Assembly (NCBI RefSeq): GCF_002163855.1
Contig: NZ_CP019332.1
Span: forward strand, 1,963,145 to 2,027,144
Origin: Winogradskyella sp. PC-19
Lineage (GTDB): Bacteria > Bacteroidota > Bacteroidia > Flavobacteriales > Flavobacteriaceae
DNA: 64,000 nucleotides
Direction: 5' to 3'
Made by a program: the position numbers and the translations under genes. Under the pieces are notes generated by a model. The model saw only the letters and a program-made list of their open reading frames with translations. It was not told where the DNA came from and ran no database searches. Of the stretch, positions 1 to 15,906 are shown piece by piece. The first letter of the stretch is position 1. Every line of letters begins with the position of its first letter.

Positions 1-1
1 A

Positions 2-550
2 GGTAATGTGATGAGCTTGTGTATCGAAAAGCGAGGCATGATTATAAATCAGACCTATTTAACGACCGAACGTGTTGAGCTTATTTTTGAAATGCCACTA
101 GCGGAAATTGTATTTGATTTTTACGATAGGTTAAAAACGGTTTCTAAAGGTTATGCGTCTTTTGATTATTCTCCGATTGGGATGAAGGTCTCAAAATTAG
201 TGCGTCTAGATGTACTATTAAATGCTCAGCCAGTTGATGCGCTTTCTGCATTAATCCACGCTGATAACGCACATAACATTGGTAAAAAAATGTGTGAGAA
301 GCTGAAAGAATTAATTCCGAGACAACAATTTGATATTCCGATTCAAGCAGCAATTGGTGCTAAGATTATCGCTCGCGAAACAGTAAAAGCACTTCGTAAA
401 GATGTAACTGCAAAATGTTATGGTGGAGATATTTCTCGTAAACGTAAGCTTTTAGAAAAGCAGAAAAAAGGGAAGAAACGTATGCGTCAAGTAGGAAATG
501 TAGAAATTCCACAGCAAGCATTTATGGCGGTTTTAAAGTTGAATGATTAA
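2..550 (+). CDS. lepA: Elongation factor 4 (LepA), C-terminal part, cut by window edge
   Basis: This is the C-terminal ~183 residues of the ribosomal back-translocase GTPase LepA/EF4. The G domain and domain II lie left of the window. The reading frame is open to base 2, and the GTG/ATG at 8-13 are internal codons of a GNVMSLC strand, not starts. The visible part covers the end of the EF-G-like domain V and the LepA-specific C-terminal domain. It carries the family hallmark [20 protein letters not shown] followed by the basic stretch with [20 protein letters not shown], which contacts the P-site tRNA and peptidyl-transferase region in known structures. It ends in the usual AVLKLND tail and is followed at once by a strong terminator. 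Confidence 0.97.
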
Positions 551-583
551 AATCACTATTCTAAAAATATATTTTATAATTTG

Positions 584-609
584 AAGCCTCTATTTTAGAG
601 GCTTTTTTT
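584..609 (+). terminator. Rho-independent terminator of lepA
   Basis: An inverted repeat (AGCCTC / GAGGCT with a TATTTTA loop) is followed by seven Ts. It sits 34 bases after the lepA stop. The next gene starts only a few bases beyond the T-run, so that gene needs a promoter inside or upstream of this hairpin, or some read-through. Confidence 0.85.
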
Positions 610-614
610 GTTCT

Positions 615-1745
615 ATGAACTTATCCTATTGGGAAATAAAATCTTGGTTAACCGATGTCGACTTTACAATCGTTGGCAGCGGTATTGTTGGTCTCAACTG
701 TGCTTTGCAACTTAAAAATCGTTTTCCAAAAGCTAAAGTTTTAATCTTAGAAAAAGGCATACTGCCACAAGGCGCGAGTACAAAGAATGCTGGGTTTGCT
801 TGTTTTGGAAGTTTAAGCGAGCTTATTGAAGATTTAAAAACACATTCAGAAGCTGAGGTCTTTAATTTAGTTAACCAACGCGTTGAAGGCTTACATTTGT
901 TAAGACAAACACTTGGAGATGACAATATCGATTATCAAGAACTCGGCGGCTACGAGTTGTTTACCAAAGCAGATGAAGTACTTTATGAAGAATGTTTGCA
1001 GCGAAAAGACGCTATAAATAAGTTACTCAAACCAATTTTTAACACATGTGTTTTTAGTTTTAAAGAAGACAGTTTTGGATTTCAAAACATCCAATCAAAA
1101 CAAGGCTTTAATCAATTTGAAGGTCAGATTGACACAGGTAAAATGATGAGCGCTTTATTACAATTAGTATATCAAAAAGGTATTAAAATATTAAACGCAA
1201 CTACGGTAGAATCATTTTCAGAAGACTCAAATTCCGTAAAAGTAAAAACCAATCACTTTGAGTTTACAACAAGTAAATTATTGATTGCAACAAATGGTTT
1301 TGCTTCTAAATTATTGGACGAAAATTTAAATCTCGATTATCGAGTAAAACCAGCAAGAGCTCAAGTGTTGATTACAGAACCCATAAAAAACTTAAAAATT
1401 AAAGGCACATTTCATTTAGAAAAAGGCTATTACTATTTCCGAAATATTGATAATCGCATTCTTTTTGGAGGCGGGCGACACCTTGATTTCAAAGCGGAAG
1501 AAACAACAGAGTTAGCGCAAACAGAACTTGTAAAAAACAAGCTCAAAGAACTTTTAGAAACGACAATTTTACCCAATCAAAATGTAAATATTGACCAATA
1601 TTGGTCTGGGATTATGGGAGTTGGTTCTCAGAAAAAACCAATAGTTAAACAATTAAGTAATAATGTGTTTTGTGGTGTTAGACTTGGTGGAATGGGTGTT
1701 GCTATTGGTAGCTTAGTTGGTAAAGAATTAGCAGATTTAGTGTAG
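615..1745 (+). CDS. FAD-dependent oxidoreductase of the DAO (glycine/D-amino acid oxidase) family
   Basis: A 376-residue soluble flavoprotein. The Rossmann dinucleotide motif is GSGIVGLNCA at residues ~22-31, followed by an acidic strand end (LILEKG) for the FAD ribose and the flavin-contacting segment GASTKNAGFAC at ~53-63. A GGGRHLD segment and a C-terminal GVRLGGMGVAIGS segment complete the DAO fold seen in ThiO, MnmC and glycine oxidase relatives. It presumably oxidises an amine or amino acid, but the substrate cannot be read from sequence or neighbours. The start at 615 leaves ~20 residues before the FAD motif, which is normal for the family. The following Gre-like gene is 36 bases downstream on the same strand. 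Confidence 0.85.
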   Translation: MNLSYWEIKSWLTDVDFTIVGSGIVGLNCALQLKNRFPKAKVLILEKGILPQGASTKNAGFACFGSLSELIEDLKTHSEAEVFNLVNQRVEGLHLLRQTLGDDNIDYQELGGYELFTKADEVLYEECLQRKDAINKLLKPIFNTCVFSFKEDSFGFQNIQSKQGFNQFEGQIDTGKMMSALLQLVYQKGIKILNATTVESFSEDSNSVKVKTNHFEFTTSKLLIATNGFASKLLDENLNLDYRVKPARAQVLITEPIKNLKIKGTFHLEKGYYYFRNIDNRILFGGGRHLDFKAEETTELAQTELVKNKLKELLETTILPNQNVNIDQYWSGIMGVGSQKKPIVKQLSNNVFCGVRLGGMGVAIGSLVGKELADLV

Positions 1746-1781
1746 AAGTAATAATGATTATTTTTAGTTCATATTAAGATA

Positions 1782-2231
1782 ATGAATATCAAAAAACAAT
1801 TATATAAAGAATCTGAAACAATTCTCTACAAACGTTTAGAAGTCATTCAGCATACTATTTCTGATATTCAAAAAGCATTACAATCCGAAACTAAAAGTTC
1901 TGCAGGAGACAAGCACGAAACTGGTCGAGCGATGCTACAATTAGAACGCGAAAAAGCAGGTAATCAATTAGCAGAATTACAAAAACAAATAGAACTACTT
2001 CACAAAATAAATACTGAAGCGTTGCATAACAAAGCCGTACTAGGTAGTATTGTAAAAACTACAGAGTTAAATTACTTTATTAGTGTAAGTGTTGGTGAAA
2101 TAAAAATAGAACATGAATCTTTTTATGCGATTTCAGCCGCAACACCAATCGGAAGACTTTTAATTTCTAAAGAAGTAGGTGATGTAATTCAATTCAGAAC
2201 GCAACAATTCAAAATTATTGAAGTTTTGTAA
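1782..2231 (+). CDS. GreA/GreB-like transcript cleavage factor relative
   Basis: 149 residues with a two-part layout like GreA. Residues ~1-80 are helical and probably form a coiled-coil hairpin, with a tip segment SSAGDKHETGRAM that carries acidic residues where Gre factors place their catalytic acids. Residues ~90-149 resemble the FKBP-like C-terminal domain of Gre (SAATPIGRLLISKEVGDVIQF, ending FKIIEVL). The tip differs from canonical GreA, and the coiled coil is slightly short. A role at the RNA polymerase secondary channel is inferred from the C-terminal domain only. The family is sometimes labelled 3-oxoacyl-ACP synthase in flavobacterial annotations, which nothing in this sequence supports. 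Confidence 0.65.
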   Translation: MNIKKQLYKESETILYKRLEVIQHTISDIQKALQSETKSSAGDKHETGRAMLQLEREKAGNQLAELQKQIELLHKINTEALHNKAVLGSIVKTTELNYFISVSVGEIKIEHESFYAISAATPIGRLLISKEVGDVIQFRTQQFKIIEVL

Positions 2232-2294
2232 GTCTAACCACTACATTTTAACCATTAAATGATTTTAGTTTTCATAAGCGTTTAAGAGTATGTT

Positions 2295-2375
2295 GTCATT
2301 TCGACAGAGCGAGGAACGAGTGACGAGAAATCTCATAAATTAAGAGATTCCTCTTCGTACCTCATTCGGAATGAC
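2295..2375. repeat. Imperfect palindromic intergenic repeat, starts GTCATT and ends AATGAC
   Basis: The outer ends GTCATT (2295-2300) and AATGAC (2370-2375) are complementary. Inner blocks also pair: AGAAATCTC at about 2328-2336 and GAGATTCCTC at about 2344-2353. The unit would fold into one long imperfect hairpin in RNA or single-stranded DNA. A shortened relative (GTCATTCAGAACGAAGTGAA, then GAATCTC) lies at 20011-20037, which points to a dispersed family. No ORF is seen in it. It separates the Gre-like gene from the biosynthetic cluster. Confidence 0.75.
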
Positions 2376-2471
2376 AAACGATTCTTAGGAAAGAGTTTCA
2401 TTTGTTTTTTGACGTTTTTGTAACATAGTTCTATCAATTATTGTTTTAACTTCACGTTACAATTATTTGTT

Positions 2472-2987
2472 ATGAAAAAACTGTTAACGTCATCTCTCTT
2501 TATAACACTATTTGCATTTAGTTTTGCTCAAAATTCTTCAATAGAATTTAAGATTAAAAACCTTGGGATTAATGTCGATGGATTTTTCAAAACTTTTACC
2601 GTAACCACAAAGTTTGACGATTCTAATACGCTTATAGACTTCAGCAGTGAAATTAAAGTAAAATCTATTGAAACAGGAATTGACAGCCGTGATGAGCATC
2701 TGTTAGAAGAAGACTATTTTCACACATCAAAACACCCGTTAATCACCTTAGATGTTGCAGAGTTATACAAAAAATCAAGCAGTAATTACACAGCAAAAGT
2801 GAATTTAAAAATTAAAGGAAAAGTAAAACAACTATCAATTCCATTACAATTGGAAATCACAAAGACACATAGAAAAATAACCTCTGAATTTGAAATTAAT
2901 AGAAAAGACTTCGGAGTTGGTGGCAGCAGTTTTGTTATGAGTAAAACTGTAAAAATTAAGGTGGTTCATGTCGAAAATATTCAATGA
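2472..2987 (+). CDS. YceI-like periplasmic lipid-binding protein
   Basis: 171 residues with a cleavable signal peptide (MKKLLTSSLFITLFAFSFAQ) and then a single beta-barrel domain of the YceI type. Visible YceI traits are alternating beta strands and a DSRDEHLLEEDYFHTSKHP-like segment, which is the conserved loop around R/D-H-L-x-x-x-x-F found in the family. Characterised relatives enclose polyisoprenoid or ubiquinone-type lipids inside the barrel. Its stop overlaps the start of the FAD oxidoreductase by four bases (ATGA), so the two are translationally coupled. A role as soluble carrier for the cluster's lipid product is inferred from this coupling. It is the first gene of the ten-gene run. 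Confidence 0.8.
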   Translation: MKKLLTSSLFITLFAFSFAQNSSIEFKIKNLGINVDGFFKTFTVTTKFDDSNTLIDFSSEIKVKSIETGIDSRDEHLLEEDYFHTSKHPLITLDVAELYKKSSSNYTAKVNLKIKGKVKQLSIPLQLEITKTHRKITSEFEINRKDFGVGGSSFVMSKTVKIKVVHVENIQ

Positions 2988-4114
2988 GTAAAAACAAGTT
3001 TGATGTTATTATAATTGGTGGTGGATTGGCTGGATTAACTAGCGCAATTCATCTGTCAAAACATAACTTTGAAGTTTTACTGATTGAAAAAAACAGTTAT
3101 CCAAAACATAAAGTTTGTGGAGAATATATTTCCAATGAAGTCCTACCATATCTAAAATATCTAGATTTTGATCCTTTTGAATTTGGTGCAAAAAAGATTT
3201 CAGAATTTGAATTAACCACACATAACAACAAGAAAATTTTAGCAAAACTCCCATTAGGCGGATTTGGAATGAGTCGTTACGAATTAGATTTTCAGCTTTT
3301 TAAATTAGCATTAAAGACAGGCGTTGAAGTCGTTCAAGATACGGTTACAGATGTTCAATTTGAATCTGATAGTTTTCAAATTTCAACAAAATCAAATGTA
3401 CAGATAGAATCAAAAGTAGTTATTGGCGCTTATGGGAAACGCTCAAATCTAGACATTAAATTCAATCGTAAATTCATTACTAAAAAGTCACCGTATTTAG
3501 GCGTCAAAATTCATGCTTCAGGTGAATTTCCTGAAGAAAAAGTAGCACTGCATAATTTTAAAGGTGGTTATTGTGGCGTCTCAAAAGTGGAGAATAATCA
3601 TATTAATCTTTGTTATATAACCAATTACGATGCGTTTAAAAAGTTTAAAGACATTGACACGTTTCAACGTGATGTCATGTTTAATAATTCAGAATTAAAA
3701 AGTATTTTTCAAAATACTAAAGTTGAGTTCGACAAGCCACTAACGATAAGTCAGATTTCGTTTGAGACCAAAGACCCCATCGAAAACCATATGATTATGT
3801 GCGGTGACACTGCAGGTATGATTCATCCATTATGTGGAAACGGAATGGGTATGGCCATTCGAAGTTCGCAATTAGCATCACAGCTTATAATTGATTATCT
3901 TCAAGGAAAAATTGAAGAAAGAAAAACTCTAGAAAAACGTTACGCAAAACAATGGCAAAAAACGTTTAGTTTGCGTTTAAAAGTTGGTCATACAATCGCG
4001 TATTTATTTCGCCAAGACTGGTTAGCACCGAAGCTCCTGATAATGCTTAGAGTTTTTCCATTTTTAGCACCCTTAATTATAAAAATGACGCACGGGAAAC
4101 CGATGAAAATATAA
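2984..4114 (+). CDS. FAD-dependent oxidoreductase, geranylgeranyl-reductase/aromatic hydroxylase type
   Basis: 376 residues. The FAD-binding GGGLAGL is at 12-18, the family-typical KVCGEYIS at 43-50, and the second FAD motif GDTAGMIHPLCGNGMGMA at 274-291. This is the pattern of the FixC / geranylgeranyl reductase / p-hydroxybenzoate hydroxylase superfamily, which includes flavoproteins that hydroxylate phenolic lipids to quinols or quinones next to type III PKSs. It overlaps the YceI gene by four bases and the methyltransferase by one. Hydroxylation or redox tailoring of an aromatic PKS product is the most economical reading. Saturation of an isoprenoid-like chain is an alternative. The C-terminus (~330-376) is hydrophobic and may touch the membrane. 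Confidence 0.85.
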   Translation: MSKNKFDVIIIGGGLAGLTSAIHLSKHNFEVLLIEKNSYPKHKVCGEYISNEVLPYLKYLDFDPFEFGAKKISEFELTTHNNKKILAKLPLGGFGMSRYELDFQLFKLALKTGVEVVQDTVTDVQFESDSFQISTKSNVQIESKVVIGAYGKRSNLDIKFNRKFITKKSPYLGVKIHASGEFPEEKVALHNFKGGYCGVSKVENNHINLCYITNYDAFKKFKDIDTFQRDVMFNNSELKSIFQNTKVEFDKPLTISQISFETKDPIENHMIMCGDTAGMIHPLCGNGMGMAIRSSQLASQLIIDYLQGKIEERKTLEKRYAKQWQKTFSLRLKVGHTIAYLFRQDWLAPKLLIMLRVFPFLAPLIIKMTHGKPMKI

Positions 4115-4824
4115 TGGCAATATTTATTGACACCACACATCGAAGCAATAAGACCGAAATCATGGATGATTTTTCTATGAAAGGCGAGTTGCTTCGTGAT
4201 ACTCTAGATAAACTTGGAAACATTAACAAGTGGCTTGGTGGAAATCGAGTGACTTTAAGTGGTATAAAAAGACTTTTAAAAGAAAAGCCTAAAGACAAAA
4301 TTTATAATATTATTGACTTAGGATGTGGTCACGGCGACATACTTAGATTAATTGCAGATTTTGGTCGTAAGGAAGGTTATAAATTTAAGCTTATTGGTAT
4401 TGACGCCAATCAAGATGCGATAGATTATGCGACTGAGCTATCGATAGATTATCCGGAGTTGGTATTCGAAAATAAGGACATTTTTTCTGAAGATTTTCAG
4501 AAAATGGATTATGATATTGCATTGGCAACATTGTTTCTACACCATTTTAAAACAGATGAATTAGAAGTGCTATTGAAACAATTAGCATCCAAAGCAAAAT
4601 TAGGATTAGTCATTAACGATTTGCATAGAAGCGAAGTGGCGTATGGGCTTTTTAAATTATTAAGCTTGGTGATTTCTAACCAGATGATTATAGACGACGG
4701 CTTAACATCTATTCTTAGGGCTTTTAAAAGAAAAGATTTAGAAAACCTCAACCAAAAACTAAACCTCAAATCAGAAATCCGTTGGAAATGGGCATTCCGC
4801 TACCAATGGTTAATTAAAAAATAA
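4114..4824 (+). CDS. Class I SAM-dependent methyltransferase
   Basis: 236 residues. SAM motif I is IIDLGCGHGDILRL at ~66-79, followed by an acidic strand end (GIDANQDA) that would bind the SAM ribose, and motif IV around ALATLFLHHF at ~135-144. The N-terminus has a RSNKTEIMDDFSMKGELL helix that may cap the substrate. It overlaps the preceding flavoprotein by one base (TAATG), and its stop directly abuts the PKS start codon, so the three are co-expressed. O- or C-methylation of the PKS product is inferred from the parallel with Streptomyces srsABC (type III PKS, methyltransferase, flavin hydroxylase). The acceptor atom cannot be told from sequence. Confidence 0.85.
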   Translation: MAIFIDTTHRSNKTEIMDDFSMKGELLRDTLDKLGNINKWLGGNRVTLSGIKRLLKEKPKDKIYNIIDLGCGHGDILRLIADFGRKEGYKFKLIGIDANQDAIDYATELSIDYPELVFENKDIFSEDFQKMDYDIALATLFLHHFKTDELEVLLKQLASKAKLGLVINDLHRSEVAYGLFKLLSLVISNQMIIDDGLTSILRAFKRKDLENLNQKLNLKSEIRWKWAFRYQWLIKK

Positions 4825-5877
4825 ATGGCTGTAAGAATCACATCAGTTGCCAAACAACTGCCTCAACACACTAGAGAAACCAAGGACATTTTACCTTTTG
4901 TAGAGCTTTGGCTCGAAGGGCAAGAAGACCGTTTTAAGCGCAAAGTCCTTAAGATATTTGAAAACGCAGCAGTAGATAAGCGATACTCTATTATGGGACC
5001 AGAAGAAGTTTTTTTAAACACCTCTTTTGAAGAAAAAAATGATATCTACACAAGAGAATCTATTAAGCTTGCTGAGAAAAGTTTAGTAAAAGCTTTAGAT
5101 AAAGCGAGTCTCAAACCAACAGATATTGATTATATAATCACAGTAAGCTGCACCGGAATTATGATTCCGTCTCTGGATGCGTATTTGATTAATAGTCTTA
5201 AAATGAAACAAGATATTGTGCGTTTACCCGTGACAGAAATGGGTTGTGCTGCTGGGGTTTCAGGAATTATATATGCTAAGAATTTTCTCAAAGCCAATCC
5301 TAACAAACGCGCCGCAGTTATTGCTGTTGAGTCGCCAACAGCAACCTTTCAATTGCAAGATTACTCAATGGTAAATATTGTGAGTGCTGCTATCTTTGGA
5401 GATGGATGCGCAAGCGTTATTTTATCATCTTATGAAGATGAAAAAGGGCCAGAAATTAAAGATGAGGCTATGTATCATTTTTATGATGCTAATCACATGA
5501 TGGGGTTTAAGCTGAGGAATACTGGATTGCAGATGGTTTTAGACCAAAGTGTACCGCAAACCATTGCAGACCATTTTCCTAAAATTATTCATCCATTTTT
5601 AGAAAGAAACGATTTAACTATTGAAGATATCGACCACTTGGTATTTCATCCAGGTGGGAAAAAGATTGTGCAAACCGTTGAAGATTTATTTGGTAAGCTA
5701 GGAAAAAACATTGATGACACAAAAGAGGTTTTACGACTTTATGGAAACATGAGTAGTGCTACCGTTTTATATGTATTGGAGCGTTTTATGGATAGAGATT
5801 TGCCAAAAGGCGATAAAGGAGTCATGCTTAGTTTTGGGCCAGGTTTTTCTGCTCAACGTATTTTATTAGAATGGTGA
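4825..5877 (+). CDS. Type III polyketide synthase (chalcone/stilbene synthase superfamily)
   Basis: 350 residues, the normal length for the family. The Cys-His-Asn triad is intact: Cys141 in EMGCAAGVSG, His275 in FHPGGKK and Asn308 in YGNMSSATV. The C-terminal SFGPGFSAQRILLEW corresponds to the family signature GFGPG. Such enzymes use a free active-site cysteine to extend an acyl starter with malonyl-CoA and cyclise the chain to a pyrone, resorcinol or similar ring without an ACP of their own. The dedicated fatty-acid-synthesis genes immediately downstream suggest that the starter is a fatty acyl group handed over from ACP. Chain length and cyclisation mode cannot be predicted here. An HMG-CoA-synthase or FabH identity is unlikely because the Asn/His context is CHS-like. 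Confidence 0.92.
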   Translation: MAVRITSVAKQLPQHTRETKDILPFVELWLEGQEDRFKRKVLKIFENAAVDKRYSIMGPEEVFLNTSFEEKNDIYTRESIKLAEKSLVKALDKASLKPTDIDYIITVSCTGIMIPSLDAYLINSLKMKQDIVRLPVTEMGCAAGVSGIIYAKNFLKANPNKRAAVIAVESPTATFQLQDYSMVNIVSAAIFGDGCASVILSSYEDEKGPEIKDEAMYHFYDANHMMGFKLRNTGLQMVLDQSVPQTIADHFPKIIHPFLERNDLTIEDIDHLVFHPGGKKIVQTVEDLFGKLGKNIDDTKEVLRLYGNMSSATVLYVLERFMDRDLPKGDKGVMLSFGPGFSAQRILLEW

Positions 5878-5895
5878 CAAATATTAGTATTTGTA

Positions 5896-5916
5896 ATGCT
5901 GAACGCGTTTCAGCAT
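5896..5916. repeat. Perfect 8-bp hairpin in the gap between the PKS and the SDR
   Basis: ATGCTGAA (5896-5903) and TTCAGCAT (5909-5916) are exact inverted copies around a five-base loop. The element fills the only sizeable gap (58 bases) in an otherwise overlapping cluster. It has no T-run and so is a poor terminator. It resembles short palindromic intergenic repeats of flavobacterial genomes, and it may affect mRNA stability or partial termination between the two halves of the cluster. Confidence 0.6.
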
Positions 5917-5935
5917 CTCATAACTTTAAGAAAAA

Positions 5936-6733
5936 ATGAATAAAGAGTTTCAAAATAAAAATTACTGGGCATTAATCCTTGGCGGTAGTAGCGGATTGGG
6001 TTTAGCTACGGCAAAAAAACTAGCCAAACATGGCATGAATATTTGTATTGTGCATCGTAATTCTCGCATGCAAGAAGATGAAATTCAAGCTGAATTTGAA
6101 ACGATAAAACAAAAAGGTGTTGCTTTTAAGTCATTCAATACAGACGCTTTTAAACCTGAAAAGCGAGATGCTGTTATAGCGGAATTACTAAGTGAGTTTA
6201 CAGGTGAACACAAAATAAAAACTTTGGTACATAGCGTTGCCAAAGGGAACTTGAAACCAATGGTTTCAGATGAAAAACCAGTATTAAAAACTGATGATTT
6301 TGCATTAACTATTGGAGCTATGGGAATTAGTCTTTACGATTGGACTAAAGCACTTTTTGACGCTAAACTATTTGCAGACGATGCAAGAATTATAAGTTTT
6401 ACAAGCGAAGGCAATAGTAAAGCTTGGCAAAATTATGCAGCAGTTTCAGCAGCAAAAGTAACGCTAGAGGCCATTACAAGAAACATAGCTTTAGAGTTTG
6501 CGCCATATGGCATTAAAGCTAATTGTATACAAGCAGGTGTGACTGATACAAGTTCATTACGGATGATTCCTGGAAGTGAAGAAATCATAAAACATAGTTT
6601 AATAAGAAATCCAAATAAACGCTTAACCTTGCCAGAAGATGTAGCAAATACTGTTTATTTATTAAGTAAAGATGAAGCCTCTTGGATTACAGGAACTGTC
6701 ATTCCTGTAGATGGTGGAGAACATTTGAGTTAG
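5936..6733 (+). CDS. Short-chain dehydrogenase, enoyl-ACP reductase-like (FabI/FabL type)
   Basis: 265 residues. The NAD(P)-binding GGSSGLG is at 16-22, and the C-terminal ITGTVIPVDGGEHLS is typical of both FabG and FabI/FabL. The catalytic spacing is Tyr167-x6-Lys174 (NYAAVSAAK), which is the enoyl-reductase arrangement. Ketoreductases have Tyr-x3-Lys. The second tyrosine that FabI and FabL carry ten residues before the catalytic one is serine here (Ser157), so activity may be altered. In context it would reduce the enoyl-ACP made by the neighbouring dehydratase. The dehydratase gene begins one base after its stop, which implies a shared transcript. A ketoreductase role remains possible since no other KR is in the cluster. 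Confidence 0.8.
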   Translation: MNKEFQNKNYWALILGGSSGLGLATAKKLAKHGMNICIVHRNSRMQEDEIQAEFETIKQKGVAFKSFNTDAFKPEKRDAVIAELLSEFTGEHKIKTLVHSVAKGNLKPMVSDEKPVLKTDDFALTIGAMGISLYDWTKALFDAKLFADDARIISFTSEGNSKAWQNYAAVSAAKVTLEAITRNIALEFAPYGIKANCIQAGVTDTSSLRMIPGSEEIIKHSLIRNPNKRLTLPEDVANTVYLLSKDEASWITGTVIPVDGGEHLS

Positions 6734-6734
6734 T

Positions 6735-7169
6735 ATGAAAACATCAGAAATCATATCATTTTTACCTTATCAAAAACCATTTCTATTTGTAGATGGTATT
6801 GATAACATTTCAGAAGAAGGTGTAACAGGCAATTACACGTTTAAAAAAGGCGAGTCGTTTTATGAAGGTCATTTTAAAAATAATCCTATTACGCCTGGTG
6901 TAATACTTACGGAATGTATGGCGCAAATCGGACTCGTCTGCTTGGGTATTTATTTATTGAAAGATGAGTTGAAAGGGGAAAATCCTCAGATAGCCTTAAC
7001 AAGTCATCAAATGGATTTTTATTTACCTGTTTTACCCGAAGAAAAAGTAACTGTAGTTTCAGAAAAAGAAGTTTTTCGTTTCAATAAACTAAAGTGTAAA
7101 GTAAAAATGCTAAATAGAAAAGGCGAATTGGTTGCCAGAGGAACAATTTCAGGAATGTTGAAAGCATGA
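6735..7169 (+). CDS. 3-hydroxyacyl-ACP dehydratase, FabZ-like hotdog protein
   Basis: 144 residues, a single hotdog domain. The active-site pair is visible as His46 in YEGHFKNNP and Glu60 in TPGVILTECMAQ, which is the FabZ/FabA pattern FxGHFPxxPxxPGVxxxExxAQ. It would remove water from a 3-hydroxyacyl-ACP to give a 2-enoyl-ACP for the adjacent enoyl reductase. It is separated from the SDR by one base and overlaps the ketosynthase start by four, so it belongs to the same translational unit. It is probably a cluster-dedicated paralogue, as core lipid genes of this organism lie elsewhere (acpP-fabF at 48.4-49.9 kb). Confidence 0.88.
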   Translation: MKTSEIISFLPYQKPFLFVDGIDNISEEGVTGNYTFKKGESFYEGHFKNNPITPGVILTECMAQIGLVCLGIYLLKDELKGENPQIALTSHQMDFYLPVLPEEKVTVVSEKEVFRFNKLKCKVKMLNRKGELVARGTISGMLKA

Positions 7170-8440
7170 AAAACAGAGTCGTCATAACAGGATTGGGAGT
7201 CGTTGCGCCAAATGGCATTGGTGTAACTGAATTTACTGAAGCCTTAAAACAGGGAAAGTCAGGCATCACTTTTCATCAAGAGCTCAAAGACCTTAATTTC
7301 TCATGTCAAATAGGTGGTATGCCTAATGTTACGAATGAATTAAAATCAGAATATTTTACAGATTTACAATTACGAGGTTTTAATAGCTCTGGCATTTTAT
7401 ATGGTTGCATTGCCGGAATTGACGCATGGAAAGATGCAGGTTTTGACATGAACCCTGACAGTAAATTAGATTATGATACCGGTTTAATTTTTGGTACAGG
7501 AACGTCAGGAGTTGAAAAATTTCGAGAAGCGATTTATAAGCTTGATGAAGGTCAGGTTAGACGCTTAGGAAGTACAGTGGTTTTACAAACTATGGCAAGT
7601 GGAGTGAGTGCGTATTTAAGTGGTATGTTAGGCTTGGGTAATCAAGTAACTACAAACTCTTCGGCCTGTACAACTGGTACAGAAGGTGTATTGATGGCTT
7701 ACGATAGGATTCAAAACGGAAAAGCAAAACGAATGCTTGTTGGCAGTTGTAGTGACCACGGACCATATTTATGGGGAGGTTTTGATGCGATGCGCGTGAT
7801 GACTTATAAGCATAATGAAAATCCAGAAGAAGGTTCTAGGCCTATGAGTGCTGCCGCCTCAGGATTTGTGCCAGGAAGTGGTGCTGGTGCACTAGTATTA
7901 GAATCTTTAGAAAGTGCTTTGGAGCGCGGTGCAAAAATTTATGCTGAGGTTATAGGTGGCGAGGTAAATTCTGGAGGACAACGTCAAGGTGGTACTTTGA
8001 CAGCACCAAACGCAGAAGCTGTAAAGCGTTGTATTACAAACGCTATTGAAAATTCAGGAATAACATCAAGTCAGGTAGATGTCATTAATGGACATCTTAC
8101 CGCAACATCAAAAGACACTTTAGAGATTGAAAACTGGTCAAAAGCTCTCAGTAGAAATGGAAACACTTTTCCATATATAAACTCAACAAAATCTATGGTT
8201 GGCCACTGTTTGGCAGCTGCTGGCGCTATTGAATGTGTGGCGAGTGTTATTCAGCTCAAAGAACAATTTGTAGCACCAAATATTAATTGTGAGAATCTTA
8301 ATCCCGAAATAGAAAGAATAATTTCTAAAGAGAAAGTTCCAACCACAAAAGTTGACTATAATATTGACGTTCTAATTAAAGCTAGTTTTGGTTTTGGAGA
8401 CGTTAACGCATGTGTTTTATTTAAGCGTTTTATAGCTTAA
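7166..8440 (+). CDS. Beta-ketoacyl-ACP synthase, divergent FabF-type
   Basis: 424 residues with a full thiolase fold of the KAS-II kind. The nucleophile is Cys168 (NSSACTTGTEG). The two histidines are His310 (NGHLTATSKD) and His347 (STKSMVGHCLAAAGA, with Lys342). The segment after the first histidine is unusual: normal FabF has HGTSTPLGD, as in the housekeeping copy at 48.7 kb, while here it is HLTATSKD. The triad itself is kept, so decarboxylative condensation is expected, but with altered acyl or ACP recognition. It overlaps the dehydratase by four bases and precedes a dedicated ACP. Elongation of the starter for the type III PKS is inferred from context. Confidence 0.9.
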   Translation: MKNRVVITGLGVVAPNGIGVTEFTEALKQGKSGITFHQELKDLNFSCQIGGMPNVTNELKSEYFTDLQLRGFNSSGILYGCIAGIDAWKDAGFDMNPDSKLDYDTGLIFGTGTSGVEKFREAIYKLDEGQVRRLGSTVVLQTMASGVSAYLSGMLGLGNQVTTNSSACTTGTEGVLMAYDRIQNGKAKRMLVGSCSDHGPYLWGGFDAMRVMTYKHNENPEEGSRPMSAAASGFVPGSGAGALVLESLESALERGAKIYAEVIGGEVNSGGQRQGGTLTAPNAEAVKRCITNAIENSGITSSQVDVINGHLTATSKDTLEIENWSKALSRNGNTFPYINSTKSMVGHCLAAAGAIECVASVIQLKEQFVAPNINCENLNPEIERIISKEKVPTTKVDYNIDVLIKASFGFGDVNACVLFKRFIA

Positions 8441-8461
8441 CTTTACATTATAAAAAATACC

Positions 8462-8713
8462 ATGACAAAAGAAGAACTAATTGCTAAATTAAAAGGTATC
8501 GTTGCGCCGTATGTACAAGACGAAGAAGCCTTTAAAAATCTTTCCGAAGACACAGATTTCGTTAAGGATTTAAAAATAAATTCGGCTAATTTGGTAGATA
8601 TCATATTAGATATCGAAGATGAATTTGATATTAGACTAGAGAATGAAGACATGGAAAAAATGCTAGATGTTAAATCTGCCATGGCTATTGTCAACACAAA
8701 GCTGAGTTCATAA
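8462..8713 (+). CDS. Dedicated acyl carrier protein
   Basis: 83 residues, acidic, with the four-helix ACP pattern. The phosphopantetheine serine is Ser41 in LKINSANLVDI. The motif lacks the usual Asp before the serine (DSL in the housekeeping AcpP at 48442) and has NSAN instead. Such changes are common in secondary-metabolism ACPs and suggest a partner set separate from the core fatty acid synthase. Its stop overlaps the start codon of the phosphopantetheinyl transferase by one base, which ties the carrier to its activating enzyme. It would carry the growing acyl chain between the ketosynthase, dehydratase and reductase of this cluster. Confidence 0.88.
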   Translation: MTKEELIAKLKGIVAPYVQDEEAFKNLSEDTDFVKDLKINSANLVDIILDIEDEFDIRLENEDMEKMLDVKSAMAIVNTKLSS

Positions 8714-9276
8714 TGGTCGGTAACGATATTATAGATATCGCTAAGGCAAAAAAAGAATCTAATTGGCAACGCCCACGTTTTTTAGATAAATTATTTACCA
8801 TAAAAGAACAGCAACTTATCCGCTATTCTGACAATTCGTTTATTATGGTTTGGCGATTATGGAGCATGAAAGAAGCAGCCTATAAATTATACACACAATT
8901 AAAGCCCAGTAGATTTTATAATCCAAAAGGATTCGAATGTAAAATTGAGGGAAAGCATAGTTTAGTCCGTTTTAAAGACTTTGAGTGTTTTGTTGAAACG
9001 AAAATAACGTCTGACTACATAGTTTCGGAAGCAAGATTAGATACTATTCCAATGACATCAAAAGTGATTAAGTTTAAAAATTACGAACCAGTATTACAGA
9101 GTATTGCCATTAGAAATCAAACACTAAAATTTATAACTAAGCATTTGAGTAAACCAAGTGATAAGATTAGAATTACAAGTTCAGTATTTAATATACCAAG
9201 GGTAAAAATCAATTCAAAGCTTATCCCAATAAGCTTAACGCATCACGGAAATTACGGTGCTTTTGTGATAGCATGA
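8713..9276 (+). CDS. 4'-phosphopantetheinyl transferase
   Basis: 187 residues. The two metal/CoA motifs of the superfamily are present: GNDIIDI at 3-9, with Asp5 as the magnesium ligand, and WSMKEAAYKL at 50-59 with the Glu-Lys pair. It transfers phosphopantetheine from CoA to the serine of apo-ACP. The size is between AcpS (~120 aa) and Sfp (~230 aa), as for single-domain secondary-metabolism types. It overlaps the ACP gene by one base, so the ACP at 8462 is the likely substrate. Dedicated activation of the carrier is further evidence that this cluster works apart from primary lipid synthesis. Confidence 0.88.
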   Translation: MVGNDIIDIAKAKKESNWQRPRFLDKLFTIKEQQLIRYSDNSFIMVWRLWSMKEAAYKLYTQLKPSRFYNPKGFECKIEGKHSLVRFKDFECFVETKITSDYIVSEARLDTIPMTSKVIKFKNYEPVLQSIAIRNQTLKFITKHLSKPSDKIRITSSVFNIPRVKINSKLIPISLTHHGNYGAFVIA

Positions 9277-9277
9277 T

Positions 9278-11530
9278 ATGGAGCGATTAAGAAAAATCAT
9301 AGCAGCAATCATCAAATTTAGAGTAGCAATTATAGCTGTTTTGGCAATTGCTATGGGGTTTTCGGGTTATAACACGCTAAATAAATTGAGCGTTGACAAC
9401 TCACTTGGTATTTGGTTTTTGGAAGATGACCCAAGTTATAAAGCGTATATAGATTTTCAGGAAAGTTTTGGTTCGGATGAGATTTTCATTGCCATGCTGC
9501 CCGTTGAAAACGCTATTGGCGAAGCCGAAGTGTCGGCTCTAAAAGAGTTGCATCAAAAAATTGAAGCGTTGCCATATGTACAAACGTCTTTTAGCTTGGC
9601 AAAGGCAAAATATCCGATTTATGCCAATAAAACCATCAATTTTGATGATTTATACAACCCAAAACGTAGTGAAAAAGGATTAAAAAATCTTTTTAAGAAA
9701 TTACCAAATATTACATCTCAGCTAGTTACTAAAGACTATAAAAATCAATTCTTTTATATTCAGCTTAATCCAACACCAACTGTTGAGGAAGACCGACAAG
9801 CCATTGCCGCAGAAATGCGCGCTATTATAGAGTCTAACTACGAGAATTACTATTTAACAGGACCACCAGTTTTAAACGAAGCATACAGTAAAGGCATATA
9901 TAAAGAGAGTTTAATTTTTGGTGTCTTAACGGTTTTAGTTATCACTATAATGCTTTTGTTTTTGCTACCTAGCAAACGGTATTTAATTATCTCATTATTG
10001 TCTGTTGCCATACCAATAAGTCTACTTTTTGGGTTGATAACGTCACTTGGTTTTGCATTGAATATGATATCGATGCTTATCCCAACAATCCTTATGGTTT
10101 ATAGTGTAAGTGACGCTGTGCACATCATAAACATTTATCATAAAGAAGGATTAGCAAACAAATCATTAACTAAAGTTGAATTACTTTCAGTTGCTATAAG
10201 AAAAAGTTTAACACCTTGTTTTTACACGACTTTAACCACTTTTGTAGGTTACTTTGCGCTGTATTTATCACCATTGCCAGCATTTAAAAATATGGGTATT
10301 TTTACGTGTATTGGATTGCTGCTTAGCTTTATTTTGGTATATATCATTACGATTATTGGGTTCAGTTACATGAATTTAAACTTCGAAAAAGCAAAACCAT
10401 TATTAAGTTTAAAACGTTGGAATCAAACGGCATTTATAGATTGGTTAAACCGTGTAACATCGGATTATAAAAACGGAATAATCATTGGATTTACAGTAGT
10501 ATTATTAATTGGAGTATATTCAATTTTTCAAGTAAAGATTGATACGAATTCACGCGACCTTTTAGCAGAGGGAAAAGCAAAACAAGACTTAAGAAGCGTT
10601 GAGGCAGAACTTGGTGGAAGTAACCGTTTGCAGATTAACATTTCCACAGCCGACGGTAGTGTTATTCTAAAAAAAGACGCCTTAAAAAGCTTAGAAGATT
10701 TTCAAGAAAAACTGGAAGTAAACACATTGATTTCTAATCCAGTTTCAGTGGTTAATATCAAACAATTTTTAGAAAAAAGAACACCAGTTTTATTTCAATC
10801 TAATGTATCTGAAGATAGGATAAAAACTACACTTTCGGAAGTTGACGCTAAAGACAATAGCTTTTTCAAATTATTTTCTGAAGACCTAACCACAGCAGGA
10901 TTTACATTAACACTTATGGAAGGCCGAACCTCTCAGCTTAATCAAGTTTTAGAGGATATAAAAGTGGCTTTTGAAGGCTCTTTTGACACTAATGGGTATA
11001 AACTTAAGATTAATGGATTTGCAGTTGTTTTTGCACAATTGAATAATTTTATTTTAGAAACACAGTTCAAATCATTTTTCGCAGCATTTTTTGTAGCATT
11101 CTTATGCTTGTTAATCTTCATAAAAAATTTTCGAACCACAATTTTAGTTTTGATTCCTAATTTATTACCGTTAACAATTTTAGCCATATTGATGAGTGTT
11201 TTGGATATTCCGTTAGATGTAACAACGGCTATGATTACACCGATAATGTTAGGTATTGCCATGGACGACACTATTCATTTAGTCTATAAATACAGACGTA
11301 GCAAAACTATTTCTGGAACACCAAAACAGCGTATGGATAATGCCATAAACTATACTGGCGGCGCATTATTTAGCACAACTATTGCGCTTGTTGGCGGCTT
11401 TTTAATCATTGCAAGTAGTGCAACACCATCAGTAAGAGATTTTGGGTTGCTTTGTGCAACTACTGTTGCGATTGCTTTGATTACAGATATCTTTTACTTA
11501 CCAGCTTTATTAAAGAAGTTTGATAAATAA
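9278..11530 (+). CDS. RND/MMPL-family lipid exporter
   Basis: 750 residues with a duplicated layout. TM1 lies at ~10-30, a large extracytoplasmic loop follows (~35-200), then a block of five TM helices (~210-370), TM7 at ~400, a second loop (~420-590) and a second TM block (~595-745). The RND motif GIAMDDTIHL with paired acidic residues in the second TM block (~655-665) is the proton-relay site. The matching SDAVHI is in the first block. Relatives (MmpL, HpnN) move hydrophobic lipids out of the inner membrane. It starts one base after the PPTase stop and is the last cluster gene, which makes it the likely exporter of the polyketide lipid. No membrane-fusion or outer-membrane partner is adjacent. 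Confidence 0.88.
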   Translation: MERLRKIIAAIIKFRVAIIAVLAIAMGFSGYNTLNKLSVDNSLGIWFLEDDPSYKAYIDFQESFGSDEIFIAMLPVENAIGEAEVSALKELHQKIEALPYVQTSFSLAKAKYPIYANKTINFDDLYNPKRSEKGLKNLFKKLPNITSQLVTKDYKNQFFYIQLNPTPTVEEDRQAIAAEMRAIIESNYENYYLTGPPVLNEAYSKGIYKESLIFGVLTVLVITIMLLFLLPSKRYLIISLLSVAIPISLLFGLITSLGFALNMISMLIPTILMVYSVSDAVHIINIYHKEGLANKSLTKVELLSVAIRKSLTPCFYTTLTTFVGYFALYLSPLPAFKNMGIFTCIGLLLSFILVYIITIIGFSYMNLNFEKAKPLLSLKRWNQTAFIDWLNRVTSDYKNGIIIGFTVVLLIGVYSIFQVKIDTNSRDLLAEGKAKQDLRSVEAELGGSNRLQINISTADGSVILKKDALKSLEDFQEKLEVNTLISNPVSVVNIKQFLEKRTPVLFQSNVSEDRIKTTLSEVDAKDNSFFKLFSEDLTTAGFTLTLMEGRTSQLNQVLEDIKVAFEGSFDTNGYKLKINGFAVVFAQLNNFILETQFKSFFAAFFVAFLCLLIFIKNFRTTILVLIPNLLPLTILAILMSVLDIPLDVTTAMITPIMLGIAMDDTIHLVYKYRRSKTISGTPKQRMDNAINYTGGALFSTTIALVGGFLIIASSATPSVRDFGLLCATTVAIALITDIFYLPALLKKFDK

Positions 11531-11531
11531 T

Positions 11532-12443
11532 TTATTTGTGTATAGAGAATAATACTCGTGAACCAACTTCAATTTCAGAATCATGATGTATAAACACAGA
11601 TTTAGAAATATATTCAACTTCAATTAACCAAGTACTACCATTAAAATAACTTGCCTTCACAATGCCTTTTAAATCCGAATTATTTACAATCTGAAGCTGA
11701 TGGGCATAATAAATTTGGCCATTAATAACATTAAATTCCCCAAAAAACGAAGCTATAAGAGATAGTTTTGGGTTATTATATAAATTTTGAGGCGTGTCTT
11801 TTGCTATAATTTTTTTATCATGAAGCACCAGTATATCGTCCGAAAATCCAAGAATATCATTTTTGTCGTGAGTAGCAACGATACAGGTAATATTATTTGC
11901 TTTTAGATGTTTAAAGATATTTCTTCGGAGAGATTGTTTTTTAAAATTATCTATGTGACTAAAAGGCTCATCTAGCAAAAAAATTTCGGGTTGTTTTGCT
12001 AGTGCACGCGCTAGAGCAACACGTTGTTTTTGGCCGCCGCTAAGATTTTTAACTTTTGTTTTTGCAAAGGCTTCGAGCTCTACAATTTTAATGAGCTCAT
12101 CTGTGCGTTTTTGTTTTTCTTCTAGGTAAAAACGAGATAAGTGTTTGCCAATGTTTTCTTCAACTGTAGTGTAAGGCATCAAGTCAAATTCTTGGGTGAC
12201 GTATTTCATAAAATCGTACCCAATGACTAAGTTGTGTTTTGGTCCAAGAATTTGTTCGTTTTTCCAAAAAATTTCACCTTGTGGTAAATCATATTCGCCA
12301 TAAAGGATTTTTAGAAGGGTACTTTTTCCTGAGCCACTTTCACCAATAACAGCCAAATTTTCACCGGGCTTCAAAGCGAATGAAATCTCTTCTAAAACCG
12401 AGTTTTGACCATATCCAAACAAAATATTTTTTACTTGAAGCAT
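11532..12443 (-). CDS. Stand-alone ABC transporter ATPase with C-terminal TOBE-like region
   Basis: 303 residues. Walker A is GESGSGKST at ~36-44, the signature is LSGGQKQR (~135) and Walker B is EIFLLDEPFSHID (~158-170), followed by the switch histidine in VATHDKND. The last ~90 residues (after ~215) form a beta-rich extension like the TOBE regulatory domain of PotA/FbpC-type importers. No permease or binding protein gene is near, so its partner must lie elsewhere. Its 3' end is one base from the stop of the convergent MMPL gene with no terminator between. A terminator-bearing gap separates it from the upstream peptidase gene. The substrate is unknown. Confidence 0.85.
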   Translation of the reverse strand: MLQVKNILFGYGQNSVLEEISFALKPGENLAVIGESGSGKSTLLKILYGEYDLPQGEIFWKNEQILGPKHNLVIGYDFMKYVTQEFDLMPYTTVEENIGKHLSRFYLEEKQKRTDELIKIVELEAFAKTKVKNLSGGQKQRVALARALAKQPEIFLLDEPFSHIDNFKKQSLRRNIFKHLKANNITCIVATHDKNDILGFSDDILVLHDKKIIAKDTPQNLYNNPKLSLIASFFGEFNVINGQIYYAHQLQIVNNSDLKGIVKASYFNGSTWLIEVEYISKSVFIHHDSEIEVGSRVLFSIHK

Positions 12444-12464
12444 TTTACAAAAATACCATTAAAA

Positions 12465-12491
12465 AAACCCACTTCAAATTGAAGTGGGTTT
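12465..12491 (-). terminator. Rho-independent terminator downstream of the S9 peptidase gene
   Basis: AAACCCACTTCAA (12465-12477) pairs with TTGAAGTGGGTTT (12479-12491) around a minimal loop, and on the minus strand it runs into a T-run. It sits 20 bases after the peptidase stop and just before the ABC ATPase start, so the ATPase must have its own start site or rely on read-through. Confidence 0.85.
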
Positions 12492-12511
12492 ACTTTAACT
12501 ATAAATTATTT

Positions 12512-14677
12512 TTAGTCTTTTAACTTCTCTTTTGGCTTACTAGGTAATGTTTCAAAACCCATATTATATAAAGTGAAACCATAAATATCGGCATATTGTT
12601 CTATGGTTTTACTTACAGGAGTTCCTGCGCCGTGACCAGCATCAGTTTCAATTCTAATTAGTGTTGGATTATTTCCTGTCTGTTTAGCTTGTAATTCTGC
12701 AGCAAACTTAAAACTATGTGCAGGTACAACACGGTCGTCATGATCACCTGTAGTTACCATAGTTGCTGGATACTCTACGTCTTCTTTTACATTATGTACA
12801 GGAGAATAGCCTTTTAAATAATCAAACATTTCCTTACTGTCTTCTGCCGTACCATAATCGTATGCCCAACCTGCACCAGCAGTAAACGTGTGATAACGCA
12901 GCATATCTAAAACACCAACAGCAGGCAATGCTACTTTCATTAAATCTGGGCGTTGTGTCATTGTTGCACCAACTAATAATCCTCCATTAGAACCACCTCT
13001 AATAGCTAAGTAGTCTGAAGACGTATATTGGTTTTCTATTAGGTATTCTGCAGCAGCTATAAAATCGTCAAAAACGTTTTGCTTTTGCATCTTTGTTCCT
13101 GCATCATGCCATGCTTTACCATACTCGCCACCACCACGTAGATTTGGTACAGCATAGACGCCGCCTTGTTCCATCCAGACAGCATTTGTAATACTAAAAC
13201 TAGGCGTTAAACTGATATTAAAACCACCATAACCATAAAGGATTGTTGGATTTTTCCCATTAAGCTCTAGGCCTTTTTTGTGTGTAATAATCATAGGTAC
13301 TTTTGTACCATCTTTTGACGTGTAAAATACTTGACTACTTTCGTAATCCTCAGGATTAAAATCTATATCTGGCTTACGGAATAATTCTGAAGTACCATTT
13401 TTTATATTGAATTTATAAGTACTTCCAGGGGTCACATAATTGGTAAAAGAATAATACAACTCAGTATCTTCTTTTTTAGCTCCGAAACCTCTAGCAGATC
13501 CAACACCTGGTAATTTAATTTCACGAACCAGCTTACCATCATAATCGTATTGTAGTACTTTTGAAACTGCATCTACCATATAATTGGCAAAGAAGTATCC
13601 ACCACCAGTTGATGGGCTTAATACATTTTTAGTTTCTGGAATAAAATCGACCCAATTTTCTGGAGTAGGATTTGAAGCATTAACTGTAACCACACGTTGG
13701 TTTGGGGCTTTCCAGTTCGTCATTATATACAATTTTGAGTCTACATTTTCGATTATTCTTGAATCTGTATCTGTATGGTCAAGTATTGTAACAAAGTCGG
13801 AATTGGGTTTGGTTAAATCTTTTATAAAAAGTTTATTTCCGGATGTAGAAACACTAGCTGAAATAATTAAATAACGGTCATCTTCTGTTACGCCACCACC
13901 GATATAACGGTGTTTCTCTTCAGGTGTGCCTCCATAAATTAGTTTATCACTAGATTGCGTAGTACCTAGTTTATGATAATATACTTTGTGCTGGTCTGTT
14001 TTTGCAGACAGTTCACTTCCTTTTGGCTTATCATAACTAGAGTAATAAAAACCTTCGTTTTTATACCAAGACATACCACTAAACTTGATGTCAACTAAAG
14101 TGTCCTCAACTATCTCTTTGGATTCAACATCCATTATTAAAATTTTTCTCCAGTCACTTCCGCCTTCAGAGATAGAATAGGCTAATATTTTTCCATTTTT
14201 AGAAAAGCTAGTGCCTCCAAGTGAAATTGTTCCATCTTCTTTAAAAGTATTTGGGTCAAGAAATACTTCTGCTGTACTTGGGTCATCGCCATTTTTGTAA
14301 CGGTAAATAACATATTGATTTTGAAGCCCATCGTTTTTGTAAAAATAGGTGTAATCTCCCTCGATAAATGGCGAGCCGATTTTTTCGTAATTCCATAATT
14401 TAGATAGACGCTCTTTTAATTCTTCACGGTATGGAATATTATCTAAAAATTCTCCAGTAGTTGCGTTTTGAGTCTTTACCCAAGCTTCAGTTTCAGGACT
14501 TCTGTCATCTTCTAACCAACGGTAAGGATCATTGACTTGTTCATTAAAATAGGTGTCCGTATGTTCAATTTTTACGGTTTCAGGATAGTCTACTTTAGCG
14601 ACTTCTTTTGGTTGGGGTTCGTTTTTACAAGACATAAAAAGTACGAGTGCAATAAGCACGTAAGATATGTTTTTCAT
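12512..14677 (-). CDS. Prolyl oligopeptidase family (S9A) lipoprotein
   Basis: 721 residues when started at the Met that opens a lipoprotein signal ([19 protein letters not shown], lipobox LFMSC). An in-frame Met 17 codons upstream (14728) is rejected because it would bury the signal peptide. The N-terminal half is the seven-bladed propeller that gates the active site. The C-terminal half is an alpha/beta hydrolase with Ser563 (GGSNGG), Asp~648 (DHDDRVVP) and His~682 (DAGHGAG). These enzymes cleave short peptides after proline. Being a lipoprotein, this one should face the periplasm or cell surface and help peptide use. It is preceded by the asd terminator. Confidence 0.92.
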
Positions 14678-14711
14678 TATTTCAAGGTTGTTTATTATCC
14701 TAAAATTAATG

Positions 14712-14748
14712 AAAAAAGCATCTTTCAATATGGGAACGATGCTTTTTT
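14712..14748 (-). terminator. Rho-independent terminator of asd
   Basis: AAAAAAGCATC (14712-14722) and GATGCTTTTTT (14738-14748) are exact inverted copies around a 15-base loop. It lies 26 bases beyond the asd stop on the minus strand, with a T-run on that strand. Confidence 0.8.
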
Positions 14749-14774
14749 AAGATTTATTTATGTAAGCTTAAGAA

Positions 14775-15764: not shown

Positions 15765-15793
15765 AATAATAACAATTAAAATATAATAGGGTA

Positions 15794-15801
15794 CAAATGT
15801 A
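15794..15801 (-). promoter_or_regulatory. Candidate Bacteroidetes -7 box upstream of asd
   Basis: The minus strand reads TACATTTG, an exact TAnnTTTG match, ~30 bases before the asd start. No convincing TTTG -33 element is seen at the usual distance. Confidence 0.45.
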
Positions 15802-15851
15802 ATCTATTCATTATTTATTAATGATAGCTATTAAAATTTAAAACAAAAAAG

Positions 15852-15873
15852 ACCCCGATTGTTAAATCGGGGT
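15852..15873 (-). terminator. Rho-independent terminator of mscL
   Basis: ACCCCGATT and AATCGGGGT form a 9-bp GC-rich stem with a short GTTA loop, followed on the minus strand by a T-run. It lies ~34 bases after the mscL stop. Confidence 0.88.
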
Positions 15874-15906
15874 TTGGTTTAAATATGTAATGTAGCGGTT
15901 GCTATA

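Follow-up and report, generated by a model that had tools for sequence, protein, structure and literature searches.

The 64,000-nucleotide stretch of Winogradskyella sp. PC-19 DNA analyzed here (contig NZ_CP019332.1, positions 1,963,145 to 2,027,144; hereafter, the window) carries an operon in which a type III polyketide synthase (PKS) is encoded together with a FAD-dependent oxidoreductase, a methyltransferase, and a small set of type II fatty acid synthase (FAS) proteins. We consider it probable, at roughly 0.6, that the operon encodes a pathway of two modules, in which a dedicated dehydratase, ketosynthase, and acyl carrier protein (ACP) supply the chain to the type III PKS, and the product is an alkyl-aromatic lipid that has been methylated and oxidised and may be a quinone. 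The gene set, its order, its conserved catalytic residues, and the genome-wide co-occurrence of the PKS with the ketosynthase were observed directly.

In the pathway we infer, down to the direction of the hand-over, the acyl-ACP starter, the type of ring, the order of tailoring, and the location and role of the product, the dehydratase, ketosynthase, and ACP would build a specialised fatty acyl chain on an ACP of their own, loaded by a phosphopantetheinyl transferase (PPTase) and joined, where present, by a FabL-like reductase. Ketoreductase activity and malonyl transfer would be borrowed from the housekeeping FAS. The type III PKS would then extend the acyl chain with malonyl units and cyclise it to an aromatic ring, after which the methyltransferase and the FAD-dependent oxidoreductase would methylate and hydroxylate or oxidise the ring to give a membrane alkyl-(hydro)quinone or a related phenolic lipid. 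Outward movement might be served by lipid binding to a YceI-family protein and, in the relatives of Winogradskyella, by an MMPL transporter.

Ten plus-strand open reading frames (ORFs) fill positions 2472-11530 of the window. Their tight packing, described in the original prediction for this stretch, was confirmed: seven of the nine junctions are overlaps or at most 1 base apart, the exceptions being gaps of 58 bases between the genes for the type III PKS and the short-chain dehydrogenase/reductase (SDR) and of 21 bases between those for the ketosynthase and the ACP. Profile searches also agreed with the family labels given there to the ten products, which are:

2472..2987, plus strand: YceI-family lipid/isoprenoid-binding protein (PF04264, E 3.2e-24), probably secreted (signal-like N terminus by eye), an accessory of patchy occurrence.
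2984..4114, plus strand: FAD-dependent oxidoreductase of the geranylgeranyl-reductase/hydroxylase superfamily (TIGR02032, E 5e-31, below the model cutoff).
4114..4824, plus strand: class I S-adenosylmethionine (SAM) methyltransferase of the PRK06202 kind (NF004851, 132.9 bits, cutoff 243).
4825..5877, plus strand: type III PKS (PF02797, PF00195, and PF08392, above cutoffs) with Cys141, His275, and Asn308, and with Phe228 and Pro171.
5936..6733, plus strand: SDR resembling FabL, probably an enoyl-ACP reductase (Y-x6-K; FabL model, E 1.6e-43, short of its cutoff).
6735..7169, plus strand: FabZ-like 3-hydroxyacyl-ACP dehydratase (PF07977 and FabZ model).
7166..8440, plus strand: ketosynthase of the FabF type, from a distinct subfamily with an NGHLTAT motif (TIGR03150, E 3.8e-85, short of the model cutoff).
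8462..8713, plus strand: ACP with Asn-Ser at the attachment site (PF00550).
8713..9276, plus strand: PPTase superfamily protein (PF01648).
9278..11530, plus strand: MMPL/HAE3-type RND transporter, a lineage-specific addition (PF03176, E 3.5e-31; TIGR00921).

Conservation of the set was scored with profile hidden Markov models (HMMs) at the best 80 of 507 candidate PKS loci and at 27 further loci, the latter being those that fell within the PKS clade among 40 regions hand-picked across the score range; the remaining 13 fell outside it. A partner was counted when it lay within 9 kb of the PKS gene on the same strand, and denominators are the loci long enough to show the gene. The FAD-dependent oxidoreductase accompanied the PKS in 106/106 loci and the methyltransferase in 107/107, followed by the ketosynthase (102/103), the dehydratase (101/103), and the ACP (101/103). 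The order FAD oxidoreductase, methyltransferase, type III PKS, SDR where present, dehydratase, ketosynthase, ACP was kept in 91 of the 94 loci whose flanks were long enough, the exceptions being single loci that lacked the ACP, lacked the dehydratase, or ended at the SDR. A grouping conserved to this degree is not due to chance, and the conserved unit is FAD oxidoreductase-methyltransferase-type III PKS-(FabL-like reductase)-dehydratase-ketosynthase-ACP, usually with a PPTase.

The expectation that all ten genes would be conserved in order held for this core but not for the remainder. An SDR was near the PKS in at most 84 of 103 loci, an upper bound because any same-strand SDR within 9 kb was counted, and in one locus it lay 3' of the PPTase gene; the PPTase was found in 82 of 97. 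The SDR is therefore optional, and the PPTase is not always adjacent. YceI was present in 53 of 105 loci, once after the PPTase. The MMPL protein, proposed originally as a dedicated exporter, was near the PKS in 31 of 96 loci and was not found near it in the other 65, and it does not count among the shared components of the system. Given the patchiness of YceI and MMPL, the ten-gene set is the version found in Winogradskyella and near relatives, and the core comprises seven or eight genes.

The PKS clade is sharply delimited by score. Among 395 genomes of the phylum, 33 scored at least 571 bits and the next best 237, while in the 299 genomes sampled from the family of Winogradskyella jejuensis, whose PKS shares 97% identity with the window PKS, 103 scored at least 407 and the next best 196. 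Thirteen other Bacteroidota type III PKSs lacked all nine partners as far as the flank was visible. Three of these loci, checked with HMMs, had an adjoining ICMT methyltransferase, and two more were read so by eye; we take these PKS-ICMT pairs to be BpsAB/SrsAB-like.

Several further features were seen at individual loci (L and G numbers are our handles for loci and genomes). ORFs inserted in or near the operon each recur in at most 13 examined loci, and some look mobile by eye (GIY-YIG, transposase-like). In 14 of the 107 loci, the ACP or PPTase gene is followed by one for an integral-membrane-like protein of about 140 residues (for example, L045:15204-15635, L048:15143-15574, L050:13932-14369, L133, and L142). 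This protein was not seen in the 13 other-PKS loci and may be an alternative accessory; the one copy searched had no Pfam or NCBIfam match. A second methyltransferase-like ORF lies in or beside the operon in five loci (L048:13863-14558 and four others), after the ACP in three; at such loci the product might be methylated twice. A lipocalin-like lipoprotein and a glycine-zipper OmpA-family protein are encoded upstream of the FAD gene in L118, L119, L133, L151, and L153, the families being confirmed for L151 only. Broken-looking copies, for which sequencing errors are possible, were a PKS match split in two pieces in G546 (L171), a ketosynthase with in-frame stops in G006 (the genome of L064), and L135, in which the FAD gene is broken into two ORFs and the PKS has no adjoining dehydratase.

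How often the PKS and this ketosynthase occur together was counted genome-wide. The operon-type ketosynthase (E up to 1e-90) was detected in 101 of the 299 family genomes, all of them among the 103 with the PKS, and in no genome without it. Both PKS-only genomes are explained by assembly breaks, the contig ending inside the ketosynthase gene in G682 and inside the dehydratase gene, about 9 kb beyond the SDR, in G534. Fisher's p for this association is 1e-78, which serves as a description rather than a test since related genomes are not independent. The two genes are at most 6 kb apart in 97 of the 101 genomes. In G466 and G665 the ketosynthase is on a different contig from the PKS, and in G540 (L153, L170) and G580 (L176, L177) the set is split into FAD oxidoreductase-methyltransferase-PKS-SDR and dehydratase-ketosynthase-ACP, with both halves retained, 355 kb apart in G580 and on separate contigs in G540. 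Together with the conserved order, these counts bear out the claim that the PKS, its tailoring genes, and a small type II FAS travel together. The co-occurrence and the retention of both halves after splitting are the best evidence that the dehydratase, ketosynthase, and ACP serve the PKS, and they point to a private chain-building module that feeds it. Very improbable, by comparison, is that the fatty acid genes share the operon for regulation only and that the PKS uses ordinary acyl-CoA or acyl-ACP. Related PKS-methyltransferase-FAD trios on plasmids, described below, that no annotated ketosynthase or ACP adjoins would accord with this arrangement, but the near-perfect co-occurrence, even where the halves are physically apart, and a special motif in the ACP argue for dedicated supply.

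This motif is Asn40-Ser41, conserved in 102/102 aligned ACPs (here and below, residue counts are of aligned members with the window included). The ACPs of ordinary FAS have Asp-Ser at the attachment site, and the Asn-Ser variant therefore suggests a special carrier. The ketosynthase retains Cys168 in 103/103, with His310 and His347 each in 102/103 (the remaining one is a gap), the dehydratase His46 and Glu60 in 104/104, and the PPTase Asp5, Asp8, Lys53, Glu54, and Lys58 in 88/88. The Y-x6-K motif of the SDR was found with Tyr in 87/89 and Lys in 88/89. Conservation of these catalytic residues makes a dedicated chain supply credible. The best solved relative of the SDR is FabL (3oic) and its motif is that of FabL-type SDRs, though its score is below the FabL model cutoff; enoyl reduction is thus its likely job. 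Since the operon has no ketoreductase gene, FabG would have to serve in that step.

The reductive steps could also be read differently. The dehydratase, ketosynthase, and ACP might make an unsaturated (polyene) starter for a pigment-like or antioxidant conjugate, the FabL-like reductase having been lost or reassigned in some lineages. Known ketosynthase-dehydratase-ACP polyene pathways likewise do without these reductases, and in both split genomes the reductase gene is part of the PKS half and not of the chain-building half; the missing ketoreductase and the loci without the enoyl-type reductase are in keeping with this as well. However, enoyl reduction could be left to a housekeeping enzyme, FabL is the nearest match of the SDR, and the KS/CLF pair typical of aryl polyenes is absent. 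On balance we judge a polyene starter decidedly unlikely.

The unusual part of the system is the PKS, which forms a single clade with a long stem and two replacements, Trp to Phe and Cys to Pro, in its active site. It has the domains of the chalcone synthase family and the Cys141/His275/Asn308 triad, noted as intact in the original prediction and invariant in 107/107 relatives, and is by these features a type III PKS. The best NCBIfam match was DpgA, but at 175 bits against a cutoff of 425, and this identity was rejected. By sequence, its best solved relative is Mycobacterium tuberculosis Pks11. Columns were placed by alignment to Pks11, THNS, and CHS, with the equivalence of ArsB Trp281 taken from statements in the papers. 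The ring-folding site is Phe228 in 108/108 clade sequences versus Trp in 21/21 other bacterial sequences, and the pocket site equivalent to CHS-194 is Pro171 in 108/108 versus Cys in 21/21. As described in the excerpts of the papers used here, from which all published comparisons in this text are taken, the ring-folding site is Gly256 in alfalfa CHS and Tyr224 in THNS (PMC6274091); in MMAR_2474 it is Trp230, and ArsB, SrsA, FtpA, PKS10, and PKS11 have Trp there too (PMC5916927). In a tree of 36 sequences, the clade formed one group (100/100), separate from both the ICMT-pair and the trio groups, with a stem 2.04 changes per column long. A structure model of the PKS (pLDDT 77, pTM 0.83) was weakest at 172-180 and 226-236, at or beside both replaced positions, and therefore no structural claim was drawn from it.

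The Phe and Pro replacements mean that the ring may differ from a resorcinol, and the product class put forward originally, a phenolic or pyrone lipid, is less certain than was implied, as the active site departs from those of known resorcinol makers. A remodelled pocket might give another ring, such as an alkylpyrone or an acyl-phloroglucinol or resorcylic acid, to be tailored to a methylated pyrone or acid instead of a quinone. We regard this as unlikely, although both replacements are fixed in the clade and absent from the 21 other sequences, and the clade stem is long. The hydroxylase-like FAD enzyme suits a phenol better than a pyrone, and Phe228 is still a bulky aromatic residue, in what we take to be the same column as Phe252 of the fungal ORAS. 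The Phe252Gly variant of that enzyme loses resorcinol and gains pyrone formation (PMC8086630). In favor of another ring, ArsC, with Gly at the ring site, makes pyrones, and MMAR_2470, with Tyr, makes triketide pyrones (PMC6274091, PMC5916927).

The aromatic, tailored product of the two-module pathway should be expected by likeness to published trios, and the tailoring enzymes bear on this. The KxCGE[FY] motif of the FAD enzyme is common to its trio relatives (9/9 aligned, the Deinococcus enzyme, of a different kind, being left out). Halogenases are among its best solved relatives, but the WxWxIP motif of flavin halogenases was not seen by eye, and a halogenase reading was set aside. The window methyltransferase matches class I SAM domains and is not of the ICMT type to which SrsB belongs; the parallel to srsABC drawn earlier therefore stands for the PKS, methyltransferase, and oxidoreductase make-up, but as an analogy. 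A Sphingobium methyltransferase encoded beside a type III PKS scores 133 bits on NF004851, against 132.9 for that of the window. Solved relatives of the YceI protein include some titled polyisoprenoid-binding, an observation in keeping with a quinone-like lipid but no proof of one. A redox role for the product is a guess by analogy.

Several observations weigh against the two-module pathway as we draw it. No ketoreductase is encoded in the operon, at least 19 of 103 loci lack the reductase and 15 of 97 the PPTase, and the co-occurrence counts ignore shared ancestry. The Trp that marks resorcinol formers (ArsB-281, CHS-256 position) is Phe in 108/108. A midpoint root, which does not settle nearness among three groups with long branches and no outgroup, joins the clade to the ICMT-pair PKSs and not to the trio PKSs. 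The FAD enzyme is distant from all solved enzymes (best E 1.9e-10, a halogenase). When planctomycete methyltransferase and FAD genes were added to their PKS, the outcome was a single methylation, probably of a carbon atom, and the FAD enzyme was left without an assigned role (PMC10896814).

In its boldest form, which we find possible but doubtful, the proposal is that about a third of the sampled genomes of the family, probably Flavobacteriaceae, make a lipid not described before, at the extreme a polyketide quinone or hydroquinone acting as an alternative redox carrier. The PKS would represent a new type III subfamily, in which remodelling of the active site (Trp to Phe, Cys to Pro) would have adapted the enzyme to a starter held on a private ACP, and YceI, where present, would be the periplasmic carrier. 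No product or dedicated description of this arrangement was found in the open-access literature searched; subscription papers and bioRxiv were outside the scope, so one may exist elsewhere. Flavobacteriaceae type III PKS clusters appeared in the open-access excerpts as counts or list entries, with no product seen, and make up about 9-11% of the predicted biosynthetic clusters of the family (PMC7440613, PMC10734526). If this proposal holds, a large part of the class may be one pathway held in common and leading to one family of lipids, with possible consequences for the redox balance or the envelope chemistry of marine bacteria that are abundant. Which genes supply the chain and which ring is formed can be tested directly, thanks to the split genomes and to the two fixed replacements in the active site.

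Upstream of the operon is a GreA-like gene (by eye) followed by a 240-base gap, and downstream a convergent ABC-ATPase-like gene (by eye) ends 1 base past the MMPL stop. A strong hairpin at window positions 2293-2377, between the GreA-like gene and the operon (-31.9 kcal/mol, z -4.6), contains GTCATTTCGACAGAGC, which occurs once in the window; it resembles a REP-type element of flavobacteria. The promoter consensus TTTG-N18-24-TANNTTTG does not occur upstream of the operon, and its 10 occurrences in the whole window are close to the 7.7 expected by chance; an Rfam scan of window positions 1-16000 gave no match.

The known parallels, described at first as partial, are indeed so, but closer ones had been missed. 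Homologues of the methyltransferase matched 36 plasmid records, of which 10 were opened. In eight, a type III PKS and a flavin- or NAD-binding oxidoreductase are annotated within about 5 kb of the methyltransferase gene, the Deinococcus PKS among them as a synthase III domain protein; the Paracoccus PKS is an annotated short form (273 aa). An unannotated Paenibacillus plasmid locus has a PKS-sized and a FAD-type ORF flanking the methyltransferase gene, and one Sphingobium plasmid locus has a chalcone synthase about 1 kb away, with an unspecified oxidoreductase further on. Against five plasmid trios, the window methyltransferase matched in 5/5 (E 7e-22 to 4e-34) and the FAD enzyme in 4/5 (E 1e-16 to 3e-45), not matching that of Deinococcus. 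Homologous methyltransferase and FAD enzymes thus stand beside the PKS throughout the clade and in these trios, and the PKS-methyltransferase-FAD core is not new, its homologues being grouped on plasmids of other phyla.

Two of the ten opened loci, on Sphingobium yanoikuyae pKN1 (L159) and Novosphingobium pentaromativorans pLA3 (L166), are closer still, with an ACP and a ketosynthase of their own in the arrangement ACP-ketosynthase-type III PKS-methyltransferase-FAD. Unlike in the window, the flanks displayed carry no annotation of a dehydratase or a PPTase, although L159 has an SDR gene 4 kb away on the opposite strand. The Sphingobium PKS has Trp at the ring site where the window PKS has Phe, its ACP gave no match at E 1, and its ketosynthase is 26% identical to that of the window over 353 aa, so low that the sphingomonad sets look independently recruited or assembled. 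The PKS-ICMT pairs of other Bacteroidota (L123, L127, L157) and of Stenotrophomonas and Rhizobium plasmids share with the window a PKS and a methyltransferase, but the latter is ICMT (PF04140, or by annotation), the ring site is Trp, no other partners were seen, and the PKSs form a separate clade. We know of no FAS belonging to the srsABC or pkqABC operons, and of no such methyltransferase and FAD pair in the ars operon.

Published trios yield alkylresorcinols and their methylated, hydroxylated, or quinone derivatives (PMC10896814, PMC9927152, PMC8086630). The hidABC genes of cyanobacteria and a Planctomycetota methyltransferase-FAD-type III PKS operon are like the window core in gene content, each with a type III PKS, a methyltransferase, and a FAD oxidoreductase, and the 'S. 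ferox' operon also includes a lipoprotein and a lipid/isoprenoid-binding gene, comparable with the window YceI (PMC8086630, PMC10896814). In the excerpts of those papers, no ketosynthase, dehydratase, ACP, or PPTase gene is described, and the gene order differs from that of the window. Hierridin B, from hidABC, is a hydroxylated, O-methylated alkylresorcinol (PMC8086630, PMC10896814), and planctomycete PKSs expressed in Corynebacterium gave pentadecyl- and heptadecylresorcinols (PMC10896814). The srsABC and pkqABC operons of Streptomyces and Mycobacterium, which lead to alkylquinones and polyketide quinones, also combine a PKS, a methyltransferase, and an oxidoreductase (PMC9927152, PMC5916927), their PKSs carrying Trp where that of the window has Phe (PMC5916927); citing papers report the pkqABC quinones as alternative electron carriers (PMC9927152, PMC5916927). 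The dedicated acyl-chain genes of the window find their counterpart in the Azotobacter ars operon (ArsA-D), where a FAS, of type I rather than the discrete type II enzymes seen here, supplies type III PKSs, and where ArsB and ArsC, with Trp and Gly, respectively, at the site of the window Phe, accept acyl chains straight from the ACP of ArsA (PMC6274091).

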